From NCBI GenBank assembly GCA_021773815.1, contig JAJFJS010000026.1:68693-132692 (forward strand): 64,000 nucleotides of DNA, written 5' to 3'. The notes under the pieces are model-generated. The model saw nothing but the letters and a program-made list of their open reading frames with translations. It did not search any database and had not been told where the DNA came from. The translations under genes were made by a program, and so were the position numbers. Position 1 is the first letter of the stretch, and each line of letters opens with the position of its first letter. This DNA comes from Gammaproteobacteria bacterium. Lineage in GTDB: Bacteria; Pseudomonadota; Gammaproteobacteria; Steroidobacterales; GCA-2729495. Below, in pieces: positions 7,167 through 19,123 of the stretch.

Positions 7167-10100
7167 TCAGCGAAAGCTGCGGCTGTGCACCGTCAGCCGA
7201 CCGAGCAAACGGCTGTGGTCAGTCAGCCGGTCTGCGATGACATGCAGGACCTCGCCCTGCCGCTGGATACGGCCGGTGACACCGAGTAGCCTGGACTCGA
7301 GCAGCGTTCGACGCTGGCGCAGGGCGACACGCTCCCAGACGATGAGATTGATATAACCGGTCTCGTCTTCGAGCGTGATGAAGAAGACGCCTTTTGCGCT
7401 GCCGGGTCGTTGCCGCGTGATGACGATCCCGGCCGCTTCGATCGGCGTCTCGCCGGGAGCCGTGGCAACCTCGGCCGCACTCAGGATATGCCGCTCACTG
7501 AAGTACTCGCGCAGCAGCGCCATCGGGTGCCGCCGCAACGTAAGCCCCGTGCTGTTGTAATCGGCCGCAACATCCTGACCCTCCGTCGGGCGCCGCAACA
7601 TCGGTGCGCCTTCCCGTATGCCGACTCCCTGCAACAGGGGCAGCGGCGGTTCAATCCCCGCGATATCCCAGGCTGCCCGGTGACGATGCCCGGACACGAA
7701 ACGCAGCGCATCGGCGGCCGCCAGCGCGCGGCAATCTCCGTTGCCGATTCCGGTCCGCGTGACGAGATCCGGCACGTCGACAAAAGCCGCTTCGTGCCGT
7801 GCCCGCACCAGGCTCTGCCCTGCCGCCGCAGTCAATCCCTTGACCATGCACAGGCCGAGACGCAACGCCGGCTCGCCGTCGGCCCGGCGTTCGAGCGTGC
7901 ATACCCAGTCACTGTGGATCACATCGACCGGACGCACCTCGATACCATGCCGGCGCACCATCTGTACGAGTTGCGCCGGCGCATAAAAACCCATCGGCTG
8001 GCTGTTCAGCAGTGCACAGGTAAATGCCGCCGGTTCGTGACACTTGAGCCATGCGGAAACATAGACGAGTAATGCAAAGCTCGCCGAATGCGACTCGGGG
8101 AACCCGTACTCGCCGAAGCCCTGGATCTGGTTAAAAATCTGCCGCGCAAACGGCTCGGGGTAACCGCGCTCCCGCATGCCCGAAATCAGCCGGTCCTCGA
8201 ACAGCGCGATACCGCCGCGGCGCTTCCAGGCTGCCATCCCCCGCCGCAGCCGGTCCGCCTCGCCGGGCGTGAACCCGGCCGCGACGACGGCGAGTTGCAT
8301 GACCAGTTCCTGAAAGATCGGCACGCCGAGCGTGCGTTCGAGCACCTGGCGCACCTCTTCGCTGGGATAGGTCACGGCCTCCTCGCCATCCCGGCGGCGC
8401 AGGTACGGATGCACCATGTCGCCCTGGATCGGCCCGGGACGAATGATCGCCACCTCGATGACGAGATCGTAGTAACAACGCGGACGCAACCGCGGCAGCA
8501 TCGACATCTGTGCGCGCGACTCGATCTGAAATACGCCCATCGTGTCGGCGGCCGAGATCATGTCGTAGACGACCGGGTCTTCGGCGGGCACGTCGGCAAT
8601 TGTCAGCCGGCGCGTCCCGCGAAAAGCTTCGATCAAATCAAAACTGCGCCGGATTGCCGACAACATGCCGAGCGCGAGGATATCGACCTTGAGCAGACCC
8701 AGGTCGTCGAGATCATCCTTGTCCCACTGGATCACCGTACGTCCGGCCATCGCCGCATTCTCGACCGGCACGAGTTCGGACAACGGCCCCTGCGATATCA
8801 CGAAACCACCAACATGCTGTGACAGGTGACGCGGGAATCCGATCAGTTCACCGACGAGCACCCGGAGCCGATGGATCGATGAGCTGCCCGGGTCGAAGCC
8901 GGCCTCGGCGATCCGTGCGGCATCGAGTTCGCCACCGTCCCACCATTGCATCGAGCGGGCGATGCGCTCGACCTGCAGTTCGGCCAGACCGAGCGCCTTG
9001 CCGACGTCACGAATCGCGCTGCGCGGACGGTAACTAATGACCGTCGCCGTCAACGCCGCGCGGTGCCGGCCGTACTTCCCGTAGATGTACTGAATGACCT
9101 CCTCGCGCCGGTCGTTCTCGAAGTCGACATCGATATCGGGCGGCTCATTACGCTCTTTGGAGATGAATCTCTCGACGAGCATGGCCATGCGCGCCGGATC
9201 GACCTCGGTAATACCGAGACAGAAGCACACGGCCGAGTTGGCCGCCGAACCGCGTCCCTGGCACAGGATCCCGCGCCGGCGAGCGAAGCGGACGATATCG
9301 TGCACGGTCAGGAAATACGGCTCGTAACCGAGTTCGGCAATCAGGGTAAGTTCGTGATCGATCGTTTGCCGCACGCGGGCCGCGACGCCATTCGGCCACC
9401 GGCGTTCGATCCCCCGTTCTGTCAGAACCCGCAGCCAGCTCGTCGGCGTATGGTCGGCGGGCACGAGTTCATGCGGGTATTCGTAGCGCAATTCATCGAG
9501 CGAGAAATCGATACGTCGCGCGATGTCGACCGATGCCCGCAACAAGGCCGCGGGATACAGGCCGGCGAGCACGGCCCGGTCACGCAGATGCCGTTCGCCG
9601 TTCGGGTACAGCGCATAACCACCCCGGTCCACGGTCGTCCCGAGCCTGATGGCCGTCAGCGTATCCTGTAACGCGCGCCGCCCCCGCACATGCATGTGCA
9701 CGTCACCGGCAGCAACCAGCGGCAACCTCGCTGCGGCGCCGATGCGACGCAATGTTGCCAGGCGCTGGCCGTCGTCGCCGGCCGACAATAACTCGACCGC
9801 GATCCAGGCCCGGGCGGGAAAGTGCGCCGTGAACCAGCCGGCATCGGCCGTCGCGGGTGCCGCACCGGGGATCCACAGCGCGAGACACGCTTCGAGACCC
9901 TGCGCACAGCGCTCGCGCGTCAGCCGATACTCACCCTTCGGGGCGGCGCGCCGCCCGTCCGTAATCAACCGGCAAAGCTGCCCGTAGCCACGCCGGTTCT
10001 GCGCCAGCAGGACCAACCGCAAGCCGTCAGCGAGCCGGAATTCGCTGCCGATGATCAATTGCAGGTCCAGTCCTTTTGTCGCCGTATGCGCGCGAACGAC

Positions 10101-10241
10101 GCCGGCAACGGAACACTCGTCGGTCAATGCGAGCGCCTCGTAGCCGAGCGCCGCGGCACGCGTGACGAGTTCTTCCGGATGCGATGCACCGTGCAGGAAC
10201 GTAAAATTACTCAGGCAGTGCAGTTCCGCATAGGCGCTCAT
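7167..10241 (-). CDS. dnaE2: Error-prone DNA polymerase DnaE2 (ImuC)
   Basis: This is the C-family polymerase that carries out SOS-induced mutagenic translesion synthesis with ImuA and ImuB. The N-terminal PHP domain begins YAELHCLSNFTFLHGASHPEE. The polymerase core contains GRGSAANSAVCFCLGITEVD and the catalytic acidic motif PPDIDVDFENDRREEV. A helix-hairpin-helix region and a C-terminal OB fold (GIVITRQRPGSAKGVFFITL) follow. The length of 1024 residues matches DnaE2 and is shorter than the roughly 1160 residues of replicative DnaE1. Its ATG overlaps the imuB stop by four bases (ATGA). As the last gene of the lexA-imuA-imuB-dnaE2 run it should be expressed from the LexA-controlled promoter. 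Confidence 0.95.
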   Translation of the reverse strand: MSAYAELHCLSNFTFLHGASHPEELVTRAAALGYEALALTDECSVAGVVRAHTATKGLDLQLIIGSEFRLADGLRLVLLAQNRRGYGQLCRLITDGRRAAPKGEYRLTRERCAQGLEACLALWIPGAAPATADAGWFTAHFPARAWIAVELLSAGDDGQRLATLRRIGAAARLPLVAAGDVHMHVRGRRALQDTLTAIRLGTTVDRGGYALYPNGERHLRDRAVLAGLYPAALLRASVDIARRIDFSLDELRYEYPHELVPADHTPTSWLRVLTERGIERRWPNGVAARVRQTIDHELTLIAELGYEPYFLTVHDIVRFARRRGILCQGRGSAANSAVCFCLGITEVDPARMAMLVERFISKERNEPPDIDVDFENDRREEVIQYIYGKYGRHRAALTATVISYRPRSAIRDVGKALGLAELQVERIARSMQWWDGGELDAARIAEAGFDPGSSSIHRLRVLVGELIGFPRHLSQHVGGFVISQGPLSELVPVENAAMAGRTVIQWDKDDLDDLGLLKVDILALGMLSAIRRSFDLIEAFRGTRRLTIADVPAEDPVVYDMISAADTMGVFQIESRAQMSMLPRLRPRCYYDLVIEVAIIRPGPIQGDMVHPYLRRRDGEEAVTYPSEEVRQVLERTLGVPIFQELVMQLAVVAAGFTPGEADRLRRGMAAWKRRGGIALFEDRLISGMRERGYPEPFARQIFNQIQGFGEYGFPESHSASFALLVYVSAWLKCHEPAAFTCALLNSQPMGFYAPAQLVQMVRRHGIEVRPVDVIHSDWVCTLERRADGEPALRLGLCMVKGLTAAAGQSLVRARHEAAFVDVPDLVTRTGIGNGDCRALAAADALRFVSGHRHRAAWDIAGIEPPLPLLQGVGIREGAPMLRRPTEGQDVAADYNSTGLTLRRHPMALLREYFSERHILSAAEVATAPGETPIEAAGIVITRQRPGSAKGVFFITLEDETGYINLIVWERVALRQRRTLLESRLLGVTGRIQRQGEVLHVIADRLTDHSRLLGRLTVHSRSFR

Positions 10242-11842
10242 CCAAACAGGCCGTGCAGGTACCAGCCTGCGGCACGGCGGTCCTCGAAGACCCAGAACCT
10301 CGCCCCGCGGCCGTTACGCGCCACGTAATAATCGCGGCGAATATCCCGGCCGTCCCACCAGCCACTCTCGATCCGTTCCGGACCGGCCTCGAACTCGAGC
10401 GCATCACGAAACACCGGCCGACCCGCTACGATCCGCAACGCCTGTGGCTCACGGAGCATCCATAACGGCCGACTCATGCCGGACTCGCCGCACCCGGTTG
10501 CGTCACGATGCCGGCGAACCAGCCGATCCGCCGGCCTGACGGGCCGCCATGCAGCTTCGGGGCGATGCTCGGGCACCGGGCAAATCCCGTGCACGGCTTC
10601 GTCGCCGAGGCGCACGCACAACTGTTCGAGTAAACCCAGTTCCTGCCGCCCCCGGTCCGGTCGCGTACCGAACAGGTCCGCCCCATCCGGCATGACGGCA
10701 TCCGTGGCATGCGCCTCGACAGTCAGGGCATGGACGGGAGCCGTGAACTCGTGGTGAAAAAACCGCAGCCGTATGAGTTCATGCCAATAACGCGCATCCG
10801 TGACCGGGCTCAGCAACCCGATACGCAGCAGACTCGCCGGGTGACCAAGGTGGAACAGGCGAATCCACAGCGTCTGTACCGCGACCTGGTGCGTGACGAG
10901 AAAGGCGTCGAGTTTGCACAGCAGCCGCCGGGTTGCCGCCACGAGCAACCCGGCATCCGCCGTTTCCGCCGGCAGATCCAGCGTCGCCGTAAAATGCCGT
11001 GCCGGCCGATACCATGCCCGTGGCTCGGGTTGCAGCCCGAGCGCCCGATCGAGTTCCTGCCGGCAGGCCGCCCCGACGCGGCGCGCAAAACCATCGCGCG
11101 GCAACCGCACACAGTCGCCGAACGTTTCGACCCCCATCTGTGCGAGCGTTCGCCGTACCCGTTCCGGCCAGCCGAAACACGCAATCGGCAGCGTAGCGAG
11201 CCGGCCGGCCAGGCTGCCGGCCGGCGGCGCATTGTTACCGGGATGGAGGTCATCGGCAGCAGGGTCAGCCGGGTCGGCGCGACCGGCTCGTGCCAACCAC
11301 AGCGCCGCAACGGGTGTCGGCGCCGAGCTGAGCGTCACCCGGTAATGCCGTCCGGCGAGGTCCGCGACGATCAGCCGGCGCAGGGCCGGCAAGCCGCCGA
11401 ACAGCATCAGGCTGGCCCGCACATCGAGCAGCAGGGCATTGCCGGCCACGATGCTGATCGCCGGCGTATAGCGCATCGCCCAGGTCGCCAGCCCCTCCAG
11501 TGCCCGACGCTCAAGCGCCGCATCACGCACTGCCATCGTCAGGTCGGGCGCCAGCGCCAGCGCGGCGCTGACCGACATCCCGAACCGCACGCCGCGGGCG
11601 AACGCGGGCTCATTACACTGCAGGATACGCGGCGCATGGCGGCTATCGGTGACCAATGCCCCGGCACAATCATTAGAAAATTTATGAACTTCTATCTCTA
11701 TTTTATTGAAATATAAGCATATCCATACACTTTCCAGAGCCCGGCCCGGAGTCGGCGCCGCGACTGGCCCATGCCCGGACACGTCTGTCCGGGCGCCGCC
11801 CGGCACGCACAGGACCAGGGACTGCTGTCGATGATCCGGCAC
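10238..11842 (-). CDS. imuB: ImuB, Y-family polymerase-like mutasome hub protein
   Basis: This is a catalytically inactive Y-family homologue that bridges ImuA, DnaE2 and the sliding clamp. The conserved N-terminus reads VWICLYFNKIEIEV. It is followed by palm and finger regions (ARGVRFGMSVSAALALAPDL), a little-finger region, and the C-terminal tail ending RFWVFEDRRAAGWYLHGLFG, typical of ImuB. The start is uncertain. The GTG at 11842 directly follows the imuA stop codon but adds about 38 residues ahead of the conserved region. Internal GTGs at 11806 and 11782 are alternatives. Codons 39-60 are strikingly AT-rich compared with the rest of the gene. Confidence 0.88.
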   Translation of the reverse strand: MPDHRQQSLVLCVPGGARTDVSGHGPVAAPTPGRALESVWICLYFNKIEIEVHKFSNDCAGALVTDSRHAPRILQCNEPAFARGVRFGMSVSAALALAPDLTMAVRDAALERRALEGLATWAMRYTPAISIVAGNALLLDVRASLMLFGGLPALRRLIVADLAGRHYRVTLSSAPTPVAALWLARAGRADPADPAADDLHPGNNAPPAGSLAGRLATLPIACFGWPERVRRTLAQMGVETFGDCVRLPRDGFARRVGAACRQELDRALGLQPEPRAWYRPARHFTATLDLPAETADAGLLVAATRRLLCKLDAFLVTHQVAVQTLWIRLFHLGHPASLLRIGLLSPVTDARYWHELIRLRFFHHEFTAPVHALTVEAHATDAVMPDGADLFGTRPDRGRQELGLLEQLCVRLGDEAVHGICPVPEHRPEAAWRPVRPADRLVRRHRDATGCGESGMSRPLWMLREPQALRIVAGRPVFRDALEFEAGPERIESGWWDGRDIRRDYYVARNGRGARFWVFEDRRAAGWYLHGLFG

Positions 11843-12466
11843 TTATCCGGCCCCGATATCCACGCTGACGGAACACGGACGGCCGCCGCGATACTTCAGG
11901 ATTCGCACCTGCAAATCGGACCGGCCACCCGGCCTGAGCATGACTCGCAATACGGCCGGCGATCGCTGCCTGCCGGACCGCGACGGGCGAAACAACACGA
12001 CCCAGCAATCACTGCGCTCGGCAGCCAGTTGCAACCGGCGCAAGGCACGCATATCGGCCGCCCCCGGCCACGCCAGCACGGCCGCACAGGCGCCCGAGTG
12101 CAACGCCTGCTCGACGGTCCACAGCACATCGTCGTGGCGGCGACAATGCACGACGAGTATCCGGGACGCATCGAACCCGTGGCGCATGAATGCCGGGGCA
12201 TAGGGTATATAGGGTGGCGCAACCAGCAGGATCCGCCGGTCGCCGTCGAGCGCCAGCAAGGCCGGCAGCAGCAGGCGAAACTCGCCGACCCCGTACGGTT
12301 CGACGAGCAGTTCGATCAACGCCCCGACCGGCCAGCCGCCGGCCAGCGCCCGGTCCAGGTCGGCAAAACCCGTCGGCAGAACCGGACGACGCTGCCGGAC
12401 ACCCCGGGCCGCCGCCCCAATTCCCGGGGTCTGTAACAATTTCCGGAGTTGATGCCTGCGGGGCAT
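11843..12466 (-). CDS. imuA: ImuA, RecA-like mutasome accessory protein
   Basis: This is a RecA/SulA-related protein of the ImuABC translesion mutasome. Visible features are RRPVLPTGFADLDRALAGGWP, the usual ImuA/RecA N-terminal signature, then a beta-rich core (RRILLVAPPYIPYAPAFMRHG, CAAVLAWPGAADMRALRRLQLAAE) and a C-terminus with GGRSDLQVRILKYRGG. I chose the ATG at 12466 (207 residues) because GGAG lies seven bases upstream. The ORF track's GTG at 12502 sits at the edge of a strong hairpin. The stop codon directly abuts the candidate imuB GTG. The gene is 104 bases downstream of lexA on the same strand. Confidence 0.85.
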   Translation of the reverse strand: MPRRHQLRKLLQTPGIGAAARGVRQRRPVLPTGFADLDRALAGGWPVGALIELLVEPYGVGEFRLLLPALLALDGDRRILLVAPPYIPYAPAFMRHGFDASRILVVHCRRHDDVLWTVEQALHSGACAAVLAWPGAADMRALRRLQLAAERSDCWVVLFRPSRSGRQRSPAVLRVMLRPGGRSDLQVRILKYRGGRPCSVSVDIGAG

Positions 12467-12502
12467 TCTTATGCTCCGTCGGTAGGTACACCGGTTGCGC
12501 AC

Positions 12503-12530
12503 GCCCCGCCGGGCAGAAGCCCGACGGGGC
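12503..12530 (-). other. GC-rich hairpin between lexA and imuA
   Basis: Two 12-base arms (GCCCCGCCGGGC and GCCCGACGGGGC) are complementary at 11 positions and enclose a four-base loop. On the minus strand this lies after the lexA stop and before imuA. No run of T follows, so it is not a classical terminator. It could lower read-through into imuA or stabilise the lexA 3' end. It sits just before the GTG that the ORF track offers as an imuA start. Confidence 0.5.
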
Positions 12531-12570
12531 GCACGGCCGGCCCCGACAAGTCGACTAATGAATGTTCAGG

Positions 12571-13188
12571 TCAGTGCAGGGGCATGCCGTTGCGCACGAG
12601 CCCGACGACCACGCCTTCGATCACCATGTTCACGCGTTTGAGATCGACCTCGATCGGCGCAAAGGCCTCGTTTTCCGGCAGCAGCCAGACGATGGGTCCC
12701 GTCTGTCGATAACGCTTGACCGTGACCTCATCTTCGAGGCGGGCGACGATAATCTGGCCATTGCGCACCTCGGGCGTCCGGTGCACAGCAACGAGATCGC
12801 CGTCGAGGATGCCGGCGTCCTTCATGCTCATGCCCTCGACGCGCAACAGAAAATGCGGCTTCGGCTCGAAAATCGACGTATCGATCCGGTAATGGCCCTC
12901 GATGTGCTCCTCGGCCAGTATCGGGTTGCCCGCGGCCACCCGGCCGACCAGCGGCAGGCCGAGTTGCTCGCGCAGAAAATCCTTGAGCTGTATGCCCCGC
13001 GAGGCGCCCGGAATCAGTTCGATGACGCCCTTGCGCTGCAGGGCCCGCAGATGCTCCTCAGCCGCATTGACAGAGCGGAACCCGAGTTCGCGGGCAATCT
13101 CGGCACGCGTTGGCGGCATGCCGGTTTCGTCGATGAATGTCTGTAAAAAAGAAAGAATCTCGGACTGGCGTGCCGTCAACTTTTCCAT
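12571..13188 (-). CDS. lexA: LexA SOS repressor
   Basis: This is the self-cleaving repressor of the SOS regulon. It has a winged helix-turn-helix N-terminus ([39 protein letters not shown]) and a C-terminal S24 peptidase domain. The cleavage site is AAG at residues 85-87 (VGRVAAGNP). The catalytic serine is Ser121 in [13 protein letters not shown] and the lysine is Lys158 in VTVKRY. The length of 205 residues fits. Two operators lie immediately upstream, implying autoregulation. It is the first gene of the lexA-imuA-imuB-dnaE2 cluster. The ATG at 13188 gives the canonical N-terminus. Confidence 0.97.
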
Positions 13189-13198
13189 GTCAAAAGAC

Positions 13199-13214
13199 CT
13201 GTATGTATGTACAG
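13199..13214 (-). promoter_or_regulatory. LexA box 1 upstream of lexA
   Basis: CTGTATGTATGTACAG matches the gammaproteobacterial SOS box pattern CTGT-N8-ACAG exactly, with an alternating TA/TG core. It begins 11 bases upstream of the lexA ATG, so a bound repressor would cover the initiation region. Confidence 0.92.
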
Positions 13215-13215
13215 G

Positions 13216-13231
13216 CTGTGACTATATACAG
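13216..13231 (-). promoter_or_regulatory. LexA box 2 upstream of lexA
   Basis: CTGTGACTATATACAG is a second full CTGT-N8-ACAG site, offset by 17 bases (under two helical turns) from box 1. Tandem boxes of this kind are known upstream of lexA in E. coli and support tight negative autoregulation of lexA and the downstream mutasome genes. Confidence 0.9.
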
Positions 13232-13757: not shown

Positions 13758-13781
13758 TCAACTGATTACTGAAGTCAACGA

Positions 13782-13816
13782 GCCGCGGGTCAGCAATGAC
13801 CCGCGGCTTTTTTTTG
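13782..13816 (+). terminator. Rho-independent terminator after the Lpp-like gene
   Basis: A perfect 12-base stem (AGCCGCGGGTCA paired with TGACCCGCGGCT) around a GCAA tetraloop is directly followed by a run of T. It lies 25 bases after the stop codon and is the clearest intrinsic terminator in the window. Confidence 0.95.
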
Positions 13817-13846
13817 TGCTAAAAATCACGGGCAATTGCATGGTGT

Positions 13847-14109
13847 CCGAAAATGGTGTCTGACCACTGCTGTCCCACAACCTTGCACATCCTGTCAGGC
13901 TGGCATGACGGAGCGGAACCTTTCCTAGACGGTGGCCCGCAGGGACGCGGGCCCCACGCCCACTTGGACGTGTTCACGGCGTGTCTCGGAATGGTGCCGC
14001 TCCGTCATGTCGGCCCGTTCCCGATCTTTACGCAGGATCGATTCCAGCTATGCTTCAGGTGAAACACCGGTGACTGGATGGGACAGCAGTGGTCTGGCAC
14101 CATTTTCGG
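13847..14109. repeat. 263-bp nested inverted-repeat element (MITE/REP-like, non-coding)
   Basis: The outer arms of 31 bases (13847-13877 and 14079-14109) are inverted copies identical at 29 positions and begin CCGAAAATGGTG. An inner pair of 23 bases (13898-13920 and 13993-14015) matches at 20 positions around CATGACGGAGCGG. The centre holds a further perfect 7-base stem (GGCCCGC/GCGGGCC, 13934-13953). The ORFs drawn across it match nothing I know. The TGGTGTCTGACCA-type end resembles the palindromes often scattered near REP-associated tyrosine transposases, which is an inference. No transposase gene and no target-site duplication were found. Confidence 0.75.
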
Positions 14110-14192
14110 CTGCCCTTTAATTCGACATGTCTCGACAAACTCACACCGCCGACGCAGACTGAATCCCTCTATGCGGTGCGCAGGTATGGATC

Positions 14193-15842
14193 ATGGGAAC
14201 GGACGGCAAGCCTGAATTTTCATTGTCGCGGCGCGGCCTGATCGGCACCGGTCTGGGCATTGCCGCATTGCGCGCGTCGCCGGCCTCGGCGGCAATCGAC
14301 GCGCAGAACACCCCTGCGCCCGCAAAAACGCGCGCACCATTCGATTCGATGCGCGCGTACATCGCCGCACTCGAAGACCACGGGATCGTCATGCATATCC
14401 CACGCGTCGATCAGGATGCTTATGAGGCCACGGCGCTGATGTATCGGATCCGTGAACAGCACGGCATGCGCGGAGCGCCGACGCTGATCTTCGATGCAGT
14501 CCGGATCGACGGCGAATGGATCAAGGGACCGCTGATCATCAACGAGAGCGGCCACCCGTACGGCGAATGCCTGATCTTCGGTCTTGCACCCGTCGATGAA
14601 GGCCCGATCCATAAAGAACCGTATGCGAGTTATCGTCGGGCGCGCGCGCATGTCATGAGCATGCTCGAAGCCAACGACGGCGAATATCCGACGATCGCAC
14701 CCGTCGAGGTGTCGCGCGATACCGCCGCCTGCAAGCAGGTCGTGCTGACCGGCGATGATATCGACCTGACGCGGTTTCCGTTCATTCGCTGCAATCCGGG
14801 CGATGCGGGCCGCTACATCAACACGGGCGTCGTCTATACACGCCACCCGAAGTACGGCGTCAACATCGGCACCTACCGGTGTCACCTGCGCGGCCCGCGC
14901 GAAATCGGCCTGAACACGGAGCCCGGCCAGACCGGGCACCGGCACCTGATGGCGGCACAACGACGCGGAGAAAAAACCGCGCACGTCTCGATCGCGCTGA
15001 CGCCGGATCCGTACGTCTGGCTCGTCAGCGGCAGCAAGATGGCCTATGGCGGCACGGGCATCGTCGACGAACTGTCGATCGCCGGCGGCCTGGCCGGTCG
15101 TCCGCTAGAGATCGTCAGCAGCGAAACCAACGACTTCATGGTCCCGGCACACGCCGAGATGATCATCGAAGGCGAGGTTCCGCTGGATGATCTGCGCCCC
15201 GAGGGCCCCTACGGCGAGATGGCCGGGCACCAGGGCAAACGCAAGGACGCGCAATTCTGGATGCGCGTGACCGCGGTCACCCATCGACGGAACCCGTGGA
15301 TAATGAACAACTTCACCGGTGCACAGGCCGGATCCCTGATGGCCCCGGCGCACGCGCGCACGTTTTTGCAACTGCGCAAAAAATTCCCGTCGATCGTGGA
15401 TTTTTATTCCGATACGCGCACCGTCGGCGTAACCGTGACGAGCATTCGCAAGTCACGCGCCGGAGAAGGTCTGGATATCGCCCGGGCGATTACCGAACAG
15501 AATTTTTTCGCCAAGGTCGTCATCGTCGTCGATGACGATGTCGACGTCACGGACCACGAACAGGTCCTCGCCGCGCTTGGCACGCGCTGGCAGCCCTGGC
15601 TCACGACGAAGCTATATGAATCGCTGCCGTCGCTGCCGATCGACCCGAGCACCGTGACCGCCGGGCGCGGCAGCAAAATCGCGATCGATGCGACACGCCA
15701 GTGGCCCGACGAAGGCGGTCCCGACGCGTTTCCGCCACTCAACGAAACACTGCTGGCCGAAGGCGCTCCGGAAGCGTTCGCGCGCGTCGACCGCCAGTGG
15801 GGCGAACGCATCCGCGCGTGGCGGGCCAAGCCGGTGCCATAG
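14193..15842 (+). CDS. UbiD-family decarboxylase with a twin-arginine signal peptide
   Basis: The UbiD family carries out prenylated-FMN-dependent reversible (de)carboxylation. The expected active-site elements are present: NIGTYR (Asn224, Arg229), EMIIEG (Glu322) and EGPYGE (Glu337, Glu342), matching the Glu-Arg-Glu triad and metal/prFMN ligands known from fungal Fdc1. Unusually, the protein starts with a Tat-like signal: SRRGLIGTGLGIAALRASPASAA, twin arginines at 13-14, a hydrophobic stretch and an AxA cleavage site near residue 33. This suggests export of a folded, cofactor-loaded enzyme. No ubiX lies nearby. With 549 residues it is slightly longer than typical UbiD. The substrate cannot be deduced, and a role in ubiquinone synthesis is unlikely if it is periplasmic. 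Confidence 0.85.
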   Translation: MGTDGKPEFSLSRRGLIGTGLGIAALRASPASAAIDAQNTPAPAKTRAPFDSMRAYIAALEDHGIVMHIPRVDQDAYEATALMYRIREQHGMRGAPTLIFDAVRIDGEWIKGPLIINESGHPYGECLIFGLAPVDEGPIHKEPYASYRRARAHVMSMLEANDGEYPTIAPVEVSRDTAACKQVVLTGDDIDLTRFPFIRCNPGDAGRYINTGVVYTRHPKYGVNIGTYRCHLRGPREIGLNTEPGQTGHRHLMAAQRRGEKTAHVSIALTPDPYVWLVSGSKMAYGGTGIVDELSIAGGLAGRPLEIVSSETNDFMVPAHAEMIIEGEVPLDDLRPEGPYGEMAGHQGKRKDAQFWMRVTAVTHRRNPWIMNNFTGAQAGSLMAPAHARTFLQLRKKFPSIVDFYSDTRTVGVTVTSIRKSRAGEGLDIARAITEQNFFAKVVIVVDDDVDVTDHEQVLAALGTRWQPWLTTKLYESLPSLPIDPSTVTAGRGSKIAIDATRQWPDEGGPDAFPPLNETLLAEGAPEAFARVDRQWGERIRAWRAKPVP

Positions 15843-16463: not shown

Positions 16464-17615
16464 CTACCGCGGCGCGATGAGCGTGGCTGCCTCAATGGCT
16501 TCGATGGCTTCGATGGCCTCGATCATTTCGATTGCTTCAATGGCGTCTATATCGTCAATCTCCGCCGGATCTGTTTCAGTGACCGCGGCACGACCGATCC
16601 GGACCGGCACGCCCAGGCGTTCGCGCCAGGCCTGCTCGACGAGCGGCCAGTCGACGACGGCCGATCGGTCGCGCGTGGTCGCGATGTAGAGTTCGGTAAT
16701 GCGCGTCAGCGACCACTGATCGCCGTCGGCTTCGAAGGCATCGAGCGCCCCGGTCGCTTCGGCATCATCGGTTACATCGGCAGCAGCATCCGACGCATCG
16801 ACGATGATCTCGCCGTCCGCGGCCTCCTCGGCGCCACCGCCGTCCTCGAGCGGTGGATGCACCTCGAGAAACAGCTCATCGCCGGACCAGCCCAGCTTGA
16901 ATGGTTGATTGACGATACGCACCGGCGCATTGACGGGCACCTGCGGGAACAGCCATTCGATGTCTTCGGGAAACATGCGAATGCAACCGTGCGTGACGCG
17001 CATGCCGACGCCGGCCGGTCGATTTGTGCCGTGAATCAGGTACCCGGGAATACTCAGCCGCAACGCATGAGCGCCGAGCGGGTTGTCCGGACCCGGCGGC
17101 ACACGCGAAGCCAGCTTGCGGCCGTCGGCGGCCCATTCATCGCGAATCGACTGCGGCGGATACCAGCTCGGATTCGTGACTTTGGCGACGATCGCCGAAC
17201 GCCCGAGGGGCGTACCCCAGTCCATGCGCCCGATACTGATCGGAAACGTCCGGACACGGATTTGCCCGTCCGCCTCGAAAAAGAAATACATCCGGTATTC
17301 GGCGATGTTGATCACGATGCCCGATCGCGGTGCACTCGGCAGAATGAACCGTGTCGGCAAAAATACGTCCGTGCCCTCACCGGGCAACCAGACATCGACA
17401 CCCGGATTCGCGAGCCGGATTTCTTCGTACCCCAGCCCGTGTCGACGCGCGATATCGACGAGCGTGTCCTCGTACACCGATCGGGTGCGATCGGGGACGC
17501 CGATCAGATCATCGCCGGCAGCGAGGTCGTATTCCGCCGCGGCGACGCCTGGCACGGCTGACAGCAGCCAGACGCCGACAAACCAGGCATAAAACACAGA
17601 CGACAAACGAATCAA
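16464..17615 (-). CDS. L,D-transpeptidase (YkuD domain) with repetitive C-terminus
   Basis: This is a periplasmic peptidoglycan cross-linking or lipoprotein-anchoring enzyme of the ErfK/YbiS/YcfS type. I prefer the TTG start at 17615: it overlaps the upstream transporter's stop (TTGA) and has GGAG seven bases before it. It yields a clean signal peptide (FVGVWLLSAVPGVAA) and 383 residues. A LysM-like region (EDTLVDIARRHGLGYEEIRLANP) precedes the YkuD domain with IHGTNRPAGVGMRVTHGCIR, where the catalytic Cys is about residue 211. The approximately 150-residue acidic C-terminal extension ends in (AIE)n repeats from a 9-bp DNA repeat. It is the last gene of the plsX-fabH-transporter run. Confidence 0.88.
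   Translation of the reverse strand: MIRLSSVFYAWFVGVWLLSAVPGVAAAEYDLAAGDDLIGVPDRTRSVYEDTLVDIARRHGLGYEEIRLANPGVDVWLPGEGTDVFLPTRFILPSAPRSGIVINIAEYRMYFFFEADGQIRVRTFPISIGRMDWGTPLGRSAIVAKVTNPSWYPPQSIRDEWAADGRKLASRVPPGPDNPLGAHALRLSIPGYLIHGTNRPAGVGMRVTHGCIRMFPEDIEWLFPQVPVNAPVRIVNQPFKLGWSGDELFLEVHPPLEDGGGAEEAADGEIIVDASDAAADVTDDAEATGALDAFEADGDQWSLTRITELYIATTRDRSAVVDWPLVEQAWRERLGVPVRIGRAAVTETDPAEIDDIDAIEAIEMIEAIEAIEAIEAATLIAPR
16486..16557. repeat. 9-bp tandem repeat coding for (A-I-E)n
   Basis: Eight consecutive 9-base units related to ATGGCTTCG (plus strand) lie at the 3' end of the L,D-transpeptidase gene. Two units are identical and the others differ at one to several positions. The unit is a multiple of three, so copy-number changes would keep the frame and only alter the length of the EAIEAIEAIEA tail. 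Confidence 0.8.
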
Positions 17616-19123
17616 AACGCAACTCCAAGTGCCGGCATGATCACAGCCCACGCCATTAAGGGTATCAGAACGATGGCGATGAGATTAAGCCAGAACCCGG
17701 CCCGGCTCATCTGTGGAATCGATACGCGCCCGGAGCCGAACACGACGGCGTTCGGCGGTGTCGCAACAGGCAGCATGAACGCGCAACTCGCCGCGATACC
17801 GGCCGGAATAATCAGCAGCAACGGGTCGAAGCCGAGCCCGACCGCAACCGCATAGAGTATCGGCACCAGCGTTGCCGTCGTCGCCGTATTACTCGTCATC
17901 TCCGTCAGGAAGATCATCGCCGCGGACACGAGTATGACGATCAGCATCGTCGGCAGCGCCGACAGAACGGCCGCCTGACTGCCGAGAAACGCACTGAACC
18001 CGGACTGATCGAGGGTCGCGGCCAGGCTCAACCCCCCGCCGAACAGAATCAGCAGACCCCACGGCAATTTGACGGCCGTTGACCAGTCCATCAAAAATTC
18101 ACGTTCGGCCAGGCTGACCGGAGTCACGAACAGCGTCAATGCCGCGATGATCGCAATCCCCGAATCGGTCAGGCCCGCCAGCGGCACAACGTCGCCGATC
18201 GCAATCTGGCCCAGTAGCGGCCGCGTCACCCAGGTCGCGGCGGTCAGCAAAAAAATCGCCAGCGTCAGTTTCTCGGCCCGGCTCATCGGCCCGAGATCGG
18301 CGTGCATTCTTTCCAGCAGCGCCTCGACGCCGTCGATCGGGTGATTCGATACGCGAAAGACCACCCGGCTCAACAGCCACCACGCGACGGGCAGAAAAAC
18401 GATGACCAGCGGTACCGCAAACAGCATCCAGTGCGCAAAACTGATCTCGACGTCCATCTGCGTGCGAATGTATGAAACGACGAACACGTTGGGCGCAGTG
18501 CCGATAATCGTGCCGATCCCGCCGATCGTTGCCGCGTACGCGATCGCGAGCAACAGGCAGACGGGGAAATTACGTCGCGGCACGCCGCTGTCTGCGTCCT
18601 CACCGACGCCGTCCACCGAATCGTCGAGCAGCGTCGTGATACTCAATGCGACGGGCAGCAGCATGATCGTCGTCGCCGTATTCGTTACCCACATGCTGAC
18701 GAATGCCGCGATCGCCATGAAAGCGCCGATGATGCGCGTCGGCCGGGTACCGACCGCTTTCAACGCCGTCAACGCAAAACGCCGGTGCAGGCCACAGCGC
18801 TCCAGCGCCAACGCCAGCACAAAACCGCCGAGAAACAGGTAGATCACCTCGTGACCGTAGGCCGATGCTGTTTCGCCGATCGTCGCGGCGCCGGCCAGCG
18901 GGAAAACCGCCAGCGGAATCAGGGCCGTCGCATAGACCGAGATGGCCTCGGTAATCCACCAGACTGCCATCCAGACGGCCGTCGCAGCAGCCGATCGCGC
19001 CGCGCCGCTCAGGACTACCGCCTGTCCGTCACCGTCGATATAGTGCTCCGGCAACAGCATGAACACGACCGCCGCGGCCAGCGGCCCCAGCAACAGGCCG
19101 ATCATGCGCAACCGCGACGTCAT
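17612..19123 (-). CDS. DASS/SLC13-family sodium:anion (dicarboxylate/sulfate) symporter
   Basis: This is a 503-residue inner-membrane transporter with about eleven hydrophobic segments. The two family hairpin motifs are visible: WVTNTATTIMLLPVALSI in the N-terminal half and EMTSNTATTATLVPI in the C-terminal half, the Ser/Thr-Asn-Thr motifs that bind Na+ and substrate carboxylates in VcINDY-type proteins. The N-terminal WWITEAISVYATALIPLAVFP is also characteristic. It probably imports C4-dicarboxylates or related anions, though the sequence does not settle the substrate. It lies 19 bases downstream of fabH and overlaps the downstream L,D-transpeptidase start by TTGA. Confidence 0.88.
   Translation of the reverse strand: MTSRLRMIGLLLGPLAAAVVFMLLPEHYIDGDGQAVVLSGAARSAAATAVWMAVWWITEAISVYATALIPLAVFPLAGAATIGETASAYGHEVIYLFLGGFVLALALERCGLHRRFALTALKAVGTRPTRIIGAFMAIAAFVSMWVTNTATTIMLLPVALSITTLLDDSVDGVGEDADSGVPRRNFPVCLLLAIAYAATIGGIGTIIGTAPNVFVVSYIRTQMDVEISFAHWMLFAVPLVIVFLPVAWWLLSRVVFRVSNHPIDGVEALLERMHADLGPMSRAEKLTLAIFLLTAATWVTRPLLGQIAIGDVVPLAGLTDSGIAIIAALTLFVTPVSLAEREFLMDWSTAVKLPWGLLILFGGGLSLAATLDQSGFSAFLGSQAAVLSALPTMLIVILVSAAMIFLTEMTSNTATTATLVPILYAVAVGLGFDPLLLIIPAGIAASCAFMLPVATPPNAVVFGSGRVSIPQMSRAGFWLNLIAIVLIPLMAWAVIMPALGVAF

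Follow-up and report, generated by a model that had tools for sequence, protein, structure and literature searches.

A predicted Tat-exported UbiD-family (de)carboxylase and its relatives in an uncultured gammaproteobacterial lineage

A gene in the 64,000-nucleotide stretch of gammaproteobacterial DNA analysed here (the window) quite probably encodes a UbiD-type (de)carboxylase that is exported via the Tat pathway; its periplasmic substrate would be an acid of the aromatic, heteroaromatic or alpha,beta-unsaturated type. That the decarboxylase is exported with its cofactor already loaded is the best reading of three observations taken together, namely a conserved and selected Tat signal, the grouping of its bearers in the tree, and the presence of UbiX and TatC genes. 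To our knowledge, characterised prenylated FMN (prFMN) decarboxylases are all cytoplasmic. No description of an exported UbiD was found in the open-access literature, where absence is not proof; the one paper in which UbiD and export co-occurred many times deals with phthaloyl-CoA decarboxylases and exported esterases. The sequences support a view of the Tat-bearing UbiDs as a variant of a known enzyme family, predicted to be exported rather than cytosolic, and an export tag conserved across a whole branch indicates that prFMN-type chemistry probably extends beyond the inner membrane. In the window, the gene and its product comprise the following features.

14193..15842, + strand: UbiD-family decarboxylase precursor, 549 aa (ORF from ATG to TAG, Pfam, profile match, AlphaFold, Foldseek)
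14193..14294, + strand: predicted Tat signal peptide, residues 1-34 (sequence, conservation, codon selection, pLDDT <50)
14229-14234, + strand: R13 R14 of the signal, whose sub-regions are n-region 1-14, h-region 15-26 and c-region 27-34 (sequence)
14295..14336, + strand: variable linker from signal to enzyme body, residues 35-48 (relaxed codon selection, starts of cytosolic homologues)
14706..15320, + strand: UbiD Rift-related domain PF01977, residues 172-376 (Pfam, 185 bits)
14862..14879, + strand: NIGTYR motif with N224 and R229, the latter equivalent to Fdc1 R173 (clade alignment, 84/84; PMC5818171)
15168..15218, + strand: E326 (EMIIEG) with E337 and E342 (EGPYGE), the last two equivalent to Fdc1 E277/E282 (clade alignment; PMC5818171)
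15342..15692, + strand: UbiD C-terminal domain PF20696 (UbiD_C), residues 384-500 (Pfam, 73.9 bits)

A conserved twin-arginine signal

Residues 1-34 of the window protein (MGTDGKPEFSLSRRGLIGTGLGIAALRASPASAA) contain a SRRGLI motif, a 12-residue uncharged core, an arginine in the c-region and the residues ASA followed by A, with AxA cleavage predicted near residue 33/34. The Tat call was based on motif, hydrophobicity, lipobox, conservation and codon selection, and the protein has the sequence features of a Tat substrate (S/T-R-R-x-phi-phi close to the N-terminus, then a moderately hydrophobic core free of charged residues, and AxA or a lipobox). A Tat signal with an AxA site had been proposed by a sequence-only reading of this DNA, and the textbook features of residues 1-34 together with selection on the RR and h-region bear this out.

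Relatives were gathered from genomes of the same family, from named genome contigs and from genomes of the order. In a 109-row tree, the Tat UbiDs form one branch of 85 rows (SH-aLRT 99) with L110 as the sole non-Tat row. The neighbours of this branch are groups from the same subfamily that carry no Tat signal, while E. coli UbiD and the remaining two UbiD types encoded by the window genome fall outside. The sequence-only reading had raised the question whether Tat-bearing members form a clade, and they do so with one secondary loss, while the base of the branch is unresolved in a mixture-model tree of 49 rows, where two changes suffice (a single gain, plus the loss in L110). The ATG of L110 lies just past the stop of the upstream gene, so the loss of its signal is real and a frame-shifted signal was ruled out. 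L167, counted as a Tat member by an automatic rule, was relabelled non-Tat because its RR precedes the first Met.

The RR and a hydrophobic core are found in 84/85 full-length clade members, and this count in the tree-defined clade is the meaningful one since the Tat label itself is defined by RR. Conservation of the RR across orthologues, which the earlier reading had named as supporting evidence, is thus observed. Within the clade, X-1 of the Tat motif holds S, D, T, N or G, with L, F, V, M, I or A at X+3 and L, I, M or V at X+4. The RR is encoded by 20 different codon pairs; judged by this variety and by the 84/85 conservation, the N-terminal RR signal is not a product of chance. In 23 clade members a lipobox follows the RR core (e.g. 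LAGC, VTGC, TAGC, TTGC), making them predicted Tat lipoproteins. Codon selection was compared in 11 close pairs, where the ratio of non-synonymous to synonymous differences was 0.37 (25/67) for the RR and h-region and 0.32 (415/1277) for the enzyme body as opposed to 1.35 (73/54) for the linker. Hence the signal segment is translated and constrained in the same way as the enzyme, unlike the linker.

The Tat branch is part of a UbiD subfamily that has diversified within one uncultured gammaproteobacterial family, giving several paralogues in each genome. Named relatives are metagenome-assembled genomes, nearly all of them gammaproteobacteria and several labelled Chromatiales, Nevskiales or Steroidobacteraceae. 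Among the sampled genomes, no close relatives (E up to 1e-130 for the class and 1e-120 for the phylum) were found outside the window's own family, and those of the class or phylum gave no strong matches outside the order. Plasmid-borne relatives were looked for and none were found. A more distant subfamily member (L135:333-1922) has a Sec-type lipoprotein-like signal without RR (MKRKAQRNYLILLTALFFLFSYSLSC) which, if real, would mean UbiD export by another route. Further, a non-Tat member of the same subfamily is kept in small genomes (1.3-1.6 Mb) of the same order (G052, G065, G076, G087, G096, G113, G118 and G127), suggesting that it is useful even in a streamlined genome.

Fold, active site and cofactor supply

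By domain content and predicted structure, the window protein is a member of the UbiD family. Both Pfam domains score above their curated cut-offs (PF01977: 185 vs 23.3 bits, PF20696: 73.9 vs 24.2 bits). The AlphaFold model of the 549-residue protein has a pLDDT of 89.7, with residues 1-13 and 15-34 below 50, and a Foldseek search with it ranked E. coli UbiD first (3-octaprenyl-4-hydroxybenzoate decarboxylase, PDB 5m1d; E 2.7e-40, TM 0.84 by target length, 28% identity), indicating the UbiD three-dimensional fold. E. coli UbiD shares the domains and the Arg/Glu network of the window protein but carries no signal peptide and has Asp in place of E342. The top sequence-profile match among solved structures was VdcC, the vanillic acid decarboxylase of Sedimentibacter hydroxybenzoicus (PDB 7ae4; 215.6 bits, residues 54-513), whose chain has no signal, beginning directly at the enzyme body, and which, according to the PDB title, partners a small VdcD subunit. 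In the sequence profile, solved UbiD structures align only from query residue 47-54 on, and since VdcC 5-454 aligns with query 54-513, the window protein extends the UbiD fold by ~48 residues at its N-terminus. Ferulic acid decarboxylase Fdc1 of Aspergillus niger (PDB 4za4) has the same fold and the R173/E277/E282 network; it is only ~20% identical to the window protein and carries no signal for export. Sister UbiDs from the same order that are non-Tat (e.g. G000:C54:4172-5671; L155, L164, L169) share the motifs and, for most, ~41-46% body identity, but start at the enzyme body without an RR signal.

R229, E337 and E342 were matched to Fdc1 R173, E277 and E282 by motif spacing and alignment; this network is needed in Fdc1 (PMC5818171). 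The Glu-Arg-Glu/Asp network is intact in the window protein. Within the clade, R229 and E342 are conserved in 84/84 sequences, E326 in 83/84 and E337 in 78/84, with Asn replacing E337 in 6/84. The full UbiD active-site set claimed by the earlier reading (NIGTYR, EMIIEG, EGPYGE) is present and conserved across the clade. The residue row matching the E. coli His is changed in the clade alignment.

Six UbiD genes were found in the window genome, three of them Tat (C68, C71, C149) and three non-Tat, namely C54 of the same subfamily and C147 and C33 of two other types, which both pass the TIGR00148 cut-off. The genome encodes TatC (231 bits), as expected for a Tat translocase, and a single UbiX, on C33. 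In the family, full-length UbiX is present in 30/36 genomes with the subfamily vs 1/4 without it (40 genomes; hypergeometric p ~0.03, calculated by hand), and five of the six UbiX-less genomes with the subfamily are at most 88% complete. This co-occurrence gives mild support, as ubiquinone synthesis would call for UbiX as well.

The Tat pathway transports proteins that are already folded and loaded with their cofactors, which is consistent with prFMN loading in the cytoplasm followed by export. The enzyme would fold in the cytoplasm, bind prFMN made by the cell's single UbiX, and be sent as a folded holo-enzyme through TatABC by its twin-arginine signal. The signal would be cut at the AxA site, with lipidation at Cys taking place instead in about a quarter of relatives, and the mature enzyme would meet its acid substrate in the periplasm. 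The analysis shows a predicted fold, intact catalytic residues, a conserved and selected Tat signal, clustering in the tree and the presence of UbiX and TatC genes, while prFMN loading, actual export, reaction direction and substrate of the window protein are inferred. To mature oxidatively, prFMN requires an oxidant (PMC10865409), and this step could occur before or after export.

An alternative that we consider unlikely is a Tat-exported protein that has kept the UbiD fold but is no longer a prFMN decarboxylase, working instead with unmodified FMN or some other ligand in a different kind of periplasmic chemistry or binding. The window protein lies under the NCBIfam TIGR00148 cut-off (212.5 vs 244.85) and under every other curated UbiD-type cut-off, those of all equivalogs included, for instance PRK10922 (UbiD of ubiquinone synthesis; 152.8 vs 788) and NF041204 (VdcC-type hydroxyarylic acid decarboxylase; 200.1 vs 650), and its chemistry could thus have drifted. 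The radiation of many paralogues in one lineage points the same way, as do altered residues both beside the catalytic Arg and in the row of the E. coli His, whereas invariant R229 and E342, nearly invariant E337 and E326, and the co-occurrence of UbiX all argue for a retained prFMN (de)carboxylase.

Gene neighbourhood and possible substrates

The window UbiD gene is surrounded by lexA, a small alanine-zipper lipoprotein gene, an L,D-transpeptidase gene and a DASS symporter gene, and no partner gene is common to its orthologues.

17612-19123, - strand: DASS-type anion symporter gene (Na_sulph_symp, 246 bits), 1.8 kb downstream of the oppositely oriented UbiD gene

The sequence-only reading had stated that neither UbiX nor a transporter is adjacent. 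This holds for UbiX, which lies distant from the window gene, while the transporter part was loosely stated in view of the symporter. No tie was found between the symporter and the UbiD gene, and it was rejected as a functional partner. Directly upstream, lexA is followed by imuA-, imuB- and dnaE2-like genes (7167-13221, - strand; LexA assigned by domains, the others by eye), which we take to be the usual mutagenesis cassette.

Across the clade, the density of TonB receptors falls with increasing distance from the UbiD genes (2.1, 1.1, 0.6 and 0 per 100 kb), with 9 matches within 4 kb vs 2 beyond (p ~0.02, calculated by hand; single query protein), a suggestive association with the Tat UbiDs. 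For DUF1838 genes, which are likewise concentrated inside 4 kb, the densities were 2.1, 0.4, 0 and 0.4 per 100 kb, and DUF1838 neighbours in L070, L103, L119 and L133 carry Tat-like signals. Clade UbiDs often have TonB receptors or a DUF1838 protein with a Tat signal as neighbours, though the association is weak. A step in the periplasm that follows TonB import would fit this pattern, which is based on small numbers. Rieske oxygenases were discarded as frequent neighbours because they are about equally dense at all distances (1.8, 2.7, 2.0 and 2.3 per 100 kb), and SDR genes for the same reason. The window genome holds at least seven genes of DUF1838, a family of unknown function (e.g. on C36, C132, C146, C81, C83, C40 and C68; L181-L187).

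It is also conceivable, but in our estimation quite improbable, that the exported enzyme is mainly a carboxylase or modifies quinone-like or phenolic molecules bound to the envelope rather than imported nutrients. UbiD reactions are reversible (PMC10865409), the predicted lipoprotein forms would sit on the membrane surface, and the window gene lies among housekeeping genes without a catabolic partner. Against this, paralogues adjoin TonB receptors and DUF1838 genes, and a cytosolic paralogue clustered with CoA-transferase and dehalogenase-like genes looks catabolic.

Returning to an exported enzyme for imported acids, we see an even chance that, in a single uncultured aquatic gammaproteobacterial lineage, a radiation of exported UbiDs, partly free in the periplasm and partly lipid-anchored, takes (de)carboxylation by prenylated flavin beyond the inner membrane, with paralogues specialised for different TonB-imported acids. 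If so, the cofactor would be loaded before Tat transport, prFMN enzymes would function in an oxidising compartment, and some bacteria would decarboxylate acids ahead of cytoplasmic uptake. Tat and non-Tat paralogues in one genome would further provide natural internal controls for finding substrates in a large enzyme group without assigned function.

Translation start and upstream region

The annotated ATG has an AGG 8 bases upstream. The alternative start, an in-frame ATG at M52, has no Shine-Dalgarno sequence, and a start there would remove conserved residues; it was excluded on this ground and by the purifying selection on the signal. A true start downstream of residue 35, which in the sequence-only reading would have left a cytoplasmic enzyme, was accordingly not found. 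An ordinary cytosolic UbiD with an unused RR stretch, either translated from further downstream or never leaving the cytosol, is highly improbable: homologues in the cytosol do start near residue 50, where M52 sits, as does signal-less L110, but purifying selection acts on the codons of the RR and h-region, 23 homologues have a lipobox after the RR, and M52 both lacks a Shine-Dalgarno sequence and cuts into conserved residues.

A search of Rfam gave no meaningful match. Two further features lie upstream of the gene.

13780..13809, + strand: terminator-like hairpin of the upstream lipoprotein gene
13849..14107, no strand assigned: MITE-like palindromic repeat between this terminator and the UbiD start, outside the enzyme and filling most of the upstream region

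The repeat is a ~260-bp imperfect palindrome (folding z -9.4) with outer arms at 13834-13877 / 14079-14122 and inner arms at 13898-13930 / 13983-14015. The same repeat occurs at ~28 other sites in the window genome with 84-96% identity, many of them at contig ends, and therefore looks like a recently active MITE that breaks the assembly.
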